Below are positions 58,445-62,074 of a stretch of DNA of 64,000 nt, piece by piece. Below the pieces are notes generated by a model. The model made no database searches. It worked only from the letters and a program-made list of their open reading frames with translations, and was not told where the DNA came from. The position numbers and the translations under genes are program-made. Position 1 is the first letter of the stretch. Every line of letters begins with the position of its first letter. The stretch covers positions 62,001-126,000 of the forward strand of contig JAEUWH010000082.1 in assembly GCA_016785955.1 (NCBI GenBank), given 5' to 3'. This DNA comes from Pseudobdellovibrionaceae bacterium (GTDB lineage Bacteria; Bdellovibrionota; Bdellovibrionia; Bdellovibrionales; Bdellovibrionaceae).

Positions 58445-59038
58445 ATGTACGCAGTAATTAAAACTGGTGGAAAACAATACACTGTAAAACCGGGCGATGT
58501 TGTTCAAGTTGAGAAATTAGAACAAAATTTGGGTTCTGAATTTGAAATTAATGAAGTTCTTATATTTGGTGGTGATACGACTGTCGTTGGTCAGCCTCTA
58601 GTTAAAGGTGCTAAAGTGACTGTTGTTGTAACTAAACAAGGTCGTGACAGAAAAGTGATCGTATTCAAAAAGAAACGTCGTCATTCTTTCCGTAAGTTCA
58701 AAAATCACAAACAACCGTTCACAGAGTTATTTGTTAAATCCATCACGTCTCCCGAGGGTAAAACAACAGCCTCTGAATCTCAGCCAGTTGTTACAGACAT
58801 GGCGGCGGCACGAGCTCAACGTATCCAAGATAAAGTTCAAACACGCAGAGAACGCGTTGAATCCCGTTTAAACAGCAACAAATCAGTTTCTGCTGAGGAA
58901 ACTAAGACAGTAACTTCTAAAAAGAAGGCGTCTAAAAAAGTTGCTAAAAAAGCTGTAGCTAAAAAGGTATCCCCTAAAAAAGCGGCGGCAAAGAAAGCAG
59001 CTAAAAAGAAAACATCAAAAAAAGCAGCTAAGAAATAA
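58445..59038 (+). CDS. rplU: 50S ribosomal protein L21 with histone-like Lys/Ala tail
   Basis: 197 residues against ~103 in most bacteria. Residues 1-102 are L21 proper: MYAVIKTGGKQYTV, then KRRHSFRKFKNHKQPFTELF. Beyond ~104 a Ser/Thr/Glu/Arg-rich linker (104-157) leads to residues 158-197, half of which are Lys in KKA-type repeats resembling the C-terminus of bacterial histone-H1-like proteins. GGAGG precedes the ATG. The tail would extend from the solvent side of the 50S subunit or could bind RNA; its role is unknown. Followed by rpmA. Confidence 0.92.
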   Translation: MYAVIKTGGKQYTVKPGDVVQVEKLEQNLGSEFEINEVLIFGGDTTVVGQPLVKGAKVTVVVTKQGRDRKVIVFKKKRRHSFRKFKNHKQPFTELFVKSITSPEGKTTASESQPVVTDMAAARAQRIQDKVQTRRERVESRLNSNKSVSAEETKTVTSKKKASKKVAKKAVAKKVSPKKAAAKKAAKKKTSKKAAKK

Positions 59039-59073: not shown

Positions 59074-59334
59074 ATGGCATCGAAGAAGGCGGGCGGTAGT
59101 ACCAAGAATGGACGCGATTCACAAAGTAAGCGTCTTGGCGTAAAAAGATTTGGTGGAGAGTCTGTATTACCTGGAACAATCATTGTGAGACAACGTGGAA
59201 CTAAATTCCACCAAGGCAACAACGTGCGTTTTGGTAGAGACTGGACAATCTATTCAATTATCGAAGGTGTAGTTAAGTTTGAACGTGAATCAAAAACTAA
59301 ACTTAAAGTTTCTGTGTATCCAAAAGCTGGATAA
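59074..59334 (+). CDS. rpmA: 50S ribosomal protein L27
   Basis: 86 residues. [20 protein letters not shown] is the conserved flexible N-terminus near the peptidyl-transferase centre, followed by [20 protein letters not shown]. The Ala after the initiator Met is direct, so no N-terminal cleavage extension like that of Firmicutes L27 is present. SD AAGGAG. Ends before a strong terminator. Confidence 0.97.
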
Positions 59335-59378: not shown

Positions 59379-59405
59379 AAAGGGAGTTTTTGACTCCCTT
59401 TTTTT
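59379..59405 (+). terminator. Rho-independent terminator after rpmA
   Basis: AAAGGGAGT (59379-59387), 5-nt loop, ACTCCCTTT (59393-59401), then a T run to 59405. It ends the rplU-rpmA transcript and separates it from obgE. Confidence 0.9.
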
Positions 59406-59545: not shown

Positions 59546-60565
59546 ATGAGATTTATCGATGAAATTAAAATAGTGATTGGCTCTGGCCATGGTGGTCCTG
59601 GGTGCGTTAGTTTTCGCCGTGAAGCGATGACTCCGCGTGGAGGTCCTGATGGTGGTGATGGGGGAAAGGGTGGCGACTTGGTTTTGCGGGCCACACCTCA
59701 TTTGAATTCCCTTGTCGACTATCGAGCTAACAAAAGGTACATCGCTAAGAATGGTCTGCCTGGTGAGGGTGCCAAATCGTCGGGTGCTAATGGCGATGAC
59801 ATGGTTTTGCTTCTTCCTAAGGGGACAATCATCAGAAATATGGAAGGTCAGGTCTTGGCAGATCTGGCTGATGTGGATGAGTGTACGCTTCTAAAAGGTG
59901 GGCGTGGTGGAAAAGGCAATCACTTTTTCAAGACCTCCGTCAATCAAGCTCCTGAGCATGCACAGCCTGGCGAAGAAGGGAACGAGATGGAAGTCGTTCT
60001 TGAATTGAAATTAATTGCTGATGTGGGAATCATTGGATTTCCTAATGCTGGCAAATCGACGTTGATATCTCGAATTTCGGCTGCGAAACCAAAAATTGCA
60101 GATTATCCTTTTACAACTTTAGTTCCTAACTTGGGTGTTGTTAAAGTTGCTGATTTTAAATCTTTTGTAGTGGCAGATATTCCCGGTCTGGTAAAAGGCG
60201 CTCATTTGGGTGTGGGGCTTGGCATTCAATTTTTGAAACATATCGAGCGTACGAAATTTTTTATTCATTTAGTGGATGCTTCTGGATTGTCTCAGCGAGA
60301 TCCTTTGCAAGATTATGAAGACATAAATCATGAATTGAAAATGTACGATGAGGCCAACCAGGACAAAGATGGGTTTTTTCCGCTTACAGATCGAAAGCAA
60401 TTCGTGGTGTTGAACAAGATCGATACGTTGTCGGAAGCACAATTAACGAAACTAAAAACAGACTTTCAAAAACGATTTAATGTTAAACCCATCGCCATTT
60501 CAGCCTATACCGGAAAAAATATAGCTGAACTGATGACGTTCTTGACGCAAAATCTTTTTGAATAG
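59546..60565 (+). CDS. obgE: GTPase ObgE/CgtA
   Basis: 339 residues. Obg fold with glycine-rich loops (MRFIDEIKIVIGSGHGGPGC, PRGGPDGGDGGKGGD), then a G domain with G1 GFPNAGKST (~163), G2 YPFTT, G3 DIPGLVKGA and G4 NKID. It acts in late 50S assembly and ppGpp-linked growth control. No strong SD precedes the ATG; the C-terminal Obg-specific extension is short. The inverted repeat upstream may control it. Confidence 0.95.
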   Translation: MRFIDEIKIVIGSGHGGPGCVSFRREAMTPRGGPDGGDGGKGGDLVLRATPHLNSLVDYRANKRYIAKNGLPGEGAKSSGANGDDMVLLLPKGTIIRNMEGQVLADLADVDECTLLKGGRGGKGNHFFKTSVNQAPEHAQPGEEGNEMEVVLELKLIADVGIIGFPNAGKSTLISRISAAKPKIADYPFTTLVPNLGVVKVADFKSFVVADIPGLVKGAHLGVGLGIQFLKHIERTKFFIHLVDASGLSQRDPLQDYEDINHELKMYDEANQDKDGFFPLTDRKQFVVLNKIDTLSEAQLTKLKTDFQKRFNVKPIAISAYTGKNIAELMTFLTQNLFE

Positions 60566-60578
60566 AGAGAGAAAAATT

Positions 60579-61577
60579 ATGAAAATTGGTTTATTTGGTG
60601 GCACGTTTAATCCTCCGCATTTAGGTCATTTAAATGGTATCGAAACTGTTCGTCGCAAAATGGGCTTGGACAAAATTTTTATAATTCCCAATTTCCAAAA
60701 TCCATTGAAAAAAGAGTTAGACGGCCCAACGCCAGAACATCGATTGAATATGCTGAGAGCGGCTATTGTTGGCTATGAGAAATATTATGAAATCGACACT
60801 CAAGAATTAGAACGCAAAGGCTTAAGCTATACGAAAGATACAATTGCTGAATATCGCAAGCAGTATCAGTCGAAAGAAATATTTCTTATTCTGGGCGGCG
60901 ATAATTTAGAAAATTTTGATAAATGGAAAGATTATAAAAAGATTCTCGAGGAAGCAAATGTGGTGGTGACGACTCGACCTGGTTATGACATTCCGACGGA
61001 AAAAAGTGAGCTGCCTAAATACCTAGAAGACTTAACGGCGGATATCGAATTTAATTTTATCGAGTTAACTACGGGAAGAAGTATTCAATTCGTAACTCTT
61101 GATGATATCGAGATCTCTTCGACAGAGCTGCGCAAAAAACTGAGAACGGGTCGTCCAGTGACGAAATTTCTTCCGCTCAGTGTAGAAAACTATATTAAAG
61201 AAAATAATCTTTATCGAGATTTTGGGCAAAAAGTTAAGGATTATAAAAAGTTTGCTCTCTATTGCATGAATATTTTAGAAGATAAAAAAGGGATAATGAC
61301 CCTCGGTTACGACTTAACGGAAATGTCGGCGCCAGCGGAATACACCGTGATCGCTTCGGGAACATCCACTCGTCACGCAGTCTCATTGGCTGAATCCCTA
61401 ACCAGTGCGGTGAAGGATGAATTTAATTTGCTTCCCCAGAGCATCGAGGGAACGGACGAGGGGCGCTGGGTGGTTATTGATTACGGCAGTTTAATTATCC
61501 ATATTTTTTATGATTATGTCCGTCAGGAATACAATCTGGAACGACTGTGGAAAGAAGCCACTCCTATAACGAAATAG
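60579..61577 (+). CDS. nadD: NadD-RsfS fusion: nicotinate-nucleotide adenylyltransferase plus ribosomal silencing factor
   Basis: 332 residues from the ATG at 60579 (MKIGLFGGTFNPPHLGH); the frame is open to 60558 but this start leaves the obgE stop outside. Residues 1-~205 are NadD: GGTFNPPHLGHL nucleotide-binding motif and ISSTELRKKLRTG (~180-192). Residues ~220-332 (DYKKFALYCMNILEDKKGIM, then RHAVSLAESLTSAVKDE and EGRWVVIDYGSLIIHIF) are the RsfS/Iojap domain, which binds L14 and blocks subunit joining. In most bacteria nadD and rsfS are adjacent separate genes; here they share one frame. Confidence 0.9.
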   Translation: MKIGLFGGTFNPPHLGHLNGIETVRRKMGLDKIFIIPNFQNPLKKELDGPTPEHRLNMLRAAIVGYEKYYEIDTQELERKGLSYTKDTIAEYRKQYQSKEIFLILGGDNLENFDKWKDYKKILEEANVVVTTRPGYDIPTEKSELPKYLEDLTADIEFNFIELTTGRSIQFVTLDDIEISSTELRKKLRTGRPVTKFLPLSVENYIKENNLYRDFGQKVKDYKKFALYCMNILEDKKGIMTLGYDLTEMSAPAEYTVIASGTSTRHAVSLAESLTSAVKDEFNLLPQSIEGTDEGRWVVIDYGSLIIHIFYDYVRQEYNLERLWKEATPITK

Positions 61578-61603: not shown

Positions 61604-62074
61604 ATGAAAGTAGTTTTATTAAATTTTCAGACCAGCAAAGAATCTTGGTTTCAAACCGCTAACGAAACTTATTCAGAAAAAATATCGCATTTCACCTCGT
61701 TCGAGATTAAAACCTTAAGAACTCAAGCTAATGAACGAGACCAAAAAGACATACGGATCAAGAAAGAAGGGCAAGCGGTCCTGGATTTATTGAAACCAGA
61801 AGACTTTTTGGTGTTGCTGGATGAAAAAGGCCAGGCCCTGACGTCGATGAAGTTTTCTGAACATTTGAATCGAATTTTAAACTCTGGAAAAAAACAGGTT
61901 TATTTTTTGATTGGTGGACCTTATGGCGTAAGCGACGAAATTAAAATGCGAGCATCGCTCAAAATTAATCTCTCGCCGTTTACTCTGAATCATTTGGTTG
62001 CCCAAGTGGTGCTGTTGGAGCAAATTTATCGTGGTTTTACGATCTTAAAGAATCTTCCTTATCATAACCCGTAG
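61604..62074 (+). CDS. rlmH: 23S rRNA pseudouridine-1915 N3-methyltransferase RlmH
   Basis: 156 residues, SPOUT-class methyltransferase with trefoil knot. Recognised by LLDEKGQALTSMKFSEHL, FLIGGPYGVSDEIKMRA and the C-terminal LSPFTLNHLVAQVVLLEQIYRG. It methylates pseudouridine 1915 in helix 69 of 70S ribosomes. Ends with YHNP, slightly shorter than the E. coli ending. Follows the nadD-rsfS gene after 26 bp, as in many bacteria. Confidence 0.95.
   Translation: MKVVLLNFQTSKESWFQTANETYSEKISHFTSFEIKTLRTQANERDQKDIRIKKEGQAVLDLLKPEDFLVLLDEKGQALTSMKFSEHLNRILNSGKKQVYFLIGGPYGVSDEIKMRASLKINLSPFTLNHLVAQVVLLEQIYRGFTILKNLPYHNP

Follow-up and report, generated by a model that had tools for sequence, protein, structure and literature searches.

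The nadD–rsfS locus

The window is a 64,000-nucleotide stretch of one contig from a Pseudobdellovibrionaceae bacterium, which is related to the predatory Bdellovibrio. Near its end, nadD and rsfS share one open reading frame that lies between obgE and rlmH (Table 1). Direct reading gives an ATG at 60579 and a TAG at 61575–61577, with no stop in between. The N-terminal part of the encoded protein matches TIGR00482 (NCBIfam) over residues 5–212 with 173.5 bits (cut-off, 112.45), covering positions 1–194 of the 194-position model, and the Pfam family CTP_transf_like over residues 5–186 with 84 bits. The C-terminal part matches PF02410 (RsfS, Pfam) over residues 230–324 with 87.2 bits (cut-off, 21.6) and TIGR00090 (NCBIfam) over residues 229–324 with 86.3 bits (cut-off, 56.9), and both matches reach the C-terminal end of their models. 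The name of the latter model, rsfS_iojap_ybeB, identifies RsfS with YbeB. All of these Pfam and NCBIfam matches exceed the curated cut-offs. Sequence matches in the PDB cover the same two parts, NadD over residues 2–213 and RsfS over about residues 228–327. The NadD motifs GGTFNPPHLGH and ISSTELR occupy residues 7–17 and 179–185, respectively. The first-pass annotation had claimed NadD motifs and a full RsfS domain in one frame and had proposed a search with both profiles; the reading of the frame and the domain matches bear this out, both profiles scoring above their curated cut-offs.

Table 1. Coordinates of the fused gene, its parts, and its neighbors in the window
Feature	Position	Strand	Basis or remark
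obgE, upstream neighbor	59546..60565	+	TIGR02729, 422 bits
nadD–rsfS fused gene	60579..61577	+	332 aa, one frame, TAG stop
NadD domain (NaMN adenylyltransferase), residues 1–212	60579..61214	+	TIGR00482, NadD structure matches, motif conservation
Junction between NadD and RsfS helix 1, residues 213–220	61215..61238	+	Length nearly fixed
RsfS domain, residues 221–332	61239..61574	+	PF02410, TIGR00090, residue conservation
rlmH, downstream neighbor	61604..62074	+	SPOUT_MTase, 154 bits

A search of the window's genome found RsfS once, within the fusion, and NadD in the fusion and in one weak match of 70 residues. The weak match is probably another nucleotidyltransferase, for example CoaD, as we infer for its name. 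A second, stand-alone nadD or rsfS was also considered and was rejected, as the genome search found none. The surroundings of the gene are conserved: within the sequence available around each of 68 fusion loci, obgE is upstream in 66 and rlmH is downstream in 63.

Distribution of the fusion

A first survey covered the window's own genome and 59 relatives. A match was present in all 60 genomes and had an internal stop in none, which excludes a sequencing error in the window's genome. Both domains were covered in 59 of the 60; the sole incomplete match, in G032, runs off the end of its contig. A phylum-wide survey comprised 369 genomes, 144 of which belong to the same class as the window's genome. 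Loci retrieved by name come from Bdellovibrionaceae, Pseudobdellovibrionaceae, and other Bdellovibrionales/Bdellovibrionia. By count from the results table, 132 of the 144 class genomes contain the full-length fusion without a stop, at 34–85% identity, so the check in related genomes suggested by the first-pass annotation came out in favor of the fusion. The window's genome assembly consists of 124 contigs, which is the one point on the side of two genes having been joined by a sequencing or assembly error. As the same fusion occurs in 132 genomes, including those of G007, G010, G034, and G035, each assembled as a single contig, the chance of such an error is negligible.

Among the other class genomes, five have partial or unrelated matches only (G032, G243, G263, G201, and G203) and seven have no match. 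Six of these seven are 57–82% complete, and the exception, G271, is 95% complete. Nine of these 12 class genomes were rechecked with PF02410, and a separate RsfS was found in none. Outside the class, RsfS is present in 51 of the 62 genomes checked, always in unfused frames of 119–218 aa. No fusion was seen among the best 20 places in a plasmid collection, all of which are two-piece matches; nadD and rsfS are annotated there as separate genes wherever both are listed.

Some lineages deviate in one of the two genes. Families f13, f14, and f29 (e.g., G273, G281, G283, and G365) have NadD-like matches, and none of the nine genomes checked, which are 90–98% complete, has an RsfS match; RsfS has possibly been lost in these families. 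In family f12 (e.g., G164, G155, and G175), nadD and rsfS are not adjacent. The NadD-like matches of this family, located away from rsfS, are low-scoring and often contain one read-through stop, and its NadD looks highly diverged or replaced. In two relatives, a further weak NadD-like domain, the second in each, lies in a frame of about 700 aa (G036:C30:17104-17472 and G017:C11:163751-164068) and possibly represents another multidomain nucleotidyltransferase.

Origin of the fusion

Sister lineages have nadD and rsfS as separate genes, often adjacent and in some cases overlapping, which agrees with the earlier claim that the two are often neighbors. At loci L047–L052, they are in the same frame, separated by one stop with an ATG 3–33 bases further on, and at L086 and L089 they overlap as TAATG. 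We built trees from NadD, RsfS, and their concatenation. In all three, the fusions form one clade with no separate gene within it. The support for this clade is 0.96 in the concatenated tree, and modest in the single-domain trees (0.76 for NadD and 0.66 for RsfS). As the genes outside the class are separate, often adjacent or overlapping, and sometimes in the same frame with a single stop between them, a single loss of this boundary probably gave rise to the fusion. The simplest reading of these sequences is one fusion event in the class ancestor. The ancestor of Bdellovibrionia would have had an adjacent nadD–rsfS pair within an obgE–nadD–rsfS–rlmH cluster; loss of the stop/start boundary would have created a single chain, which would have been retained since then.

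Conserved residues and predicted structure

The residues important for either domain are maintained among the 68 fusions. On the NadD side, His14, His17, and Trp116 are invariant, and of the motif residues Ser180 is found in 64 and Arg185 in 67. On the RsfS side, Trp297, Asp301, and His308 are invariant, position 290 is Glu in 64 and Asp in the other four, and Tyr318 is present in 66. In Staphylococcus aureus RsfS, Glu70, Trp77, Asp81, and Tyr98 contact uL14 (PMC9503621, PMC7125091); in an alignment, they correspond to Glu290, Trp297, Asp301, and Tyr318 of the fusion, respectively.

An AlphaFold2 model built from nine sequences has a mean pLDDT of 86 and a pTM of 0.78, and consists of two well-folded domains. 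The junction has a pLDDT of about 72, below that of either domain, so the model gives no firm position of one domain relative to the other. The NadD part aligns with NadD crystal structures with TM-scores of about 0.81–0.88 by target length (Foldseek, PDB). The best 50 Foldseek matches are all NadD chains and include no two-domain match.

The fusion is very likely a genuine bifunctional protein that has become fixed in the class Bdellovibrionia, as judged from sequence comparison. The N-terminal domain would act as NadD, converting NaMN and ATP to NaAD and PPi, and the C-terminal domain as RsfS, binding uL14 on the 50S subunit and keeping the 30S subunit from joining. We infer that each domain is active and that the gene yields the undivided chain; the kept motifs, the uL14-contacting residues, and the predicted fold lead us to expect both activities in one chain. 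The simplest consequence of the fusion would be a fixed 1:1 co-production of NadD and RsfS.

The junction favors one full-length product

The gene could also yield two products, either because the whole chain is cut at the junction or because an internal start additionally provides free RsfS. The lower AlphaFold confidence of the linker relative to the domains is in line with this, as are in-frame ATGs in residues 205–249, which occur in 37 of the 68 fusions. The commonest position of these ATGs is residue 249, which is inside the RsfS fold. Across the 68 fusions, the junction has no conserved internal start, and in just one of them does it contain a start codon preceded by a Shine-Dalgarno-like motif. 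An internal start for free RsfS was thus rejected, as neither the codon nor the Shine-Dalgarno site is conserved.

The length and the evolution of the linker also speak against two products. From Tyr212 at the end of NadD to Asp245 in RsfS, 64 of the 68 distinct fusions have exactly 34 residues. We then calculated pN/pS for 153 pairs of fusions with at least 70% identity, and obtained 0.115 for NadD, 0.126 for RsfS, and 0.119–0.155 for the linker; as synonymous sites are near saturation, only the likeness of these ratios is used, not their magnitude. This likeness indicates that the linker is under purifying selection, as both domains are. Neither near-constant length nor purifying selection is expected of a dispensable spacer, and we consider two products very improbable. 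A near-constant and selected linker, together with the near-absence of starts in the junction, favors one full-length product. The first-pass annotation had likewise proposed one polypeptide, to be refuted by a frameshift or an internal start, and comparative genomics strongly supports the single polypeptide and, by conservation, contradicts both of these.

Relation to known systems

A table of the Iojap family published in 2011 lists Escherichia coli YbeB and a NadD–YbeB fusion of Wolinella succinogenes, for neither of which pyrophosphatase activity or NAD cleavage was detected (PMC3223725); no other published test of such a fusion came up. With the Wolinella fusion on record, the architecture is already known; compared by its published name, it has both domains in one chain like the Bdellovibrionia fusion. 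Wolinella belongs to another phylum, Campylobacterota. A search limited to freely accessible papers found none that deals with the NadD–RsfS fusion of Bdellovibrionia. This fusion is a class-wide further case of a known architecture, and as such is solid but not unprecedented.

The fusion shares with NadD (TIGR00482; PDB 1KAM, 1K4K, and 3E27) the whole domain, the catalytic motifs, and the fold. The known NadD structures are stand-alone, whereas RsfS directly follows the last NadD helix in the fusion. With RsfS/YbeB/Iojap (PF02410; PDB 6SJ6 and 7BL4), it shares the whole domain and the uL14-contacting residues. Bacterial RsfS proteins of known structure are stand-alone chains of 105–152 aa, while that of the fusion is carried on NadD. 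The gene order at the fusion locus is the same as in the nadD–rsfS(–rlmH) clusters of many bacteria, but in those clusters nadD and rsfS are two genes with a stop or an overlap between them.

Possible coupling of NAD synthesis and ribosome silencing

The first-pass annotation had also taken a fusion to couple NAD synthesis and ribosome silencing; cross-regulation between the two domains is speculative. On top of bifunctionality, binding of NaMN, ATP, or NAD to the NadD domain might alter the binding of RsfS to the 50S subunit, or binding to the 50S subunit might alter the activity of NadD, and the energy state would be linked to the shut-down of translation. The conserved junction of fixed length and the retention of the fusion across the whole class are consistent with such coupling, and so is the action of RsfS in starvation (PMC7125091, PMC9503621). 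However, 1:1 co-production accounts for the retention equally well, and the Wolinella NadD–YbeB showed neither NAD cleavage nor pyrophosphatase activity (PMC3223725), and we regard the coupling as unlikely. We would be hesitant, more so than about coupling in general, to view the fusion as a metabolic sensor, in which the substrate state of NadD would control RsfS on the 50S subunit and tie NAD supply to ribosome shut-down. It is equally doubtful that such a sensor would operate, for instance, at the switch from prey-fed growth to the starving attack phase or back.

Class-wide retention suggests that joining NadD to RsfS does no harm at the very least, and may even be beneficial. In many bacteria, nadD and rsfS lie together for no evident reason. 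The fusion, which occurs in culturable relatives of Bdellovibrio, is a natural protein with which a mutual effect of NAD synthesis and ribosome silencing could be probed. In Bdellovibrionia, any loss of RsfS would also affect the gene that encodes the only NaMN adenylyltransferase.

Sequence upstream of obgE

Between an rpmA-like frame (59074–59334) and obgE, a ten-pair hairpin followed by a T tract was located at 59379–59401 by consensus match only. The hairpin is a plausible terminator, and with it ahead of obgE, the genes from obgE onwards may be a transcription unit of their own. A frame at 58445–59038 resembles, by eye, ribosomal protein L21 in its N-terminal part, and ends in a long Lys/Ala-rich C-terminal tail (KKAAAKKAAKKKTSKKAAKK) with a histone-H1-like appearance.
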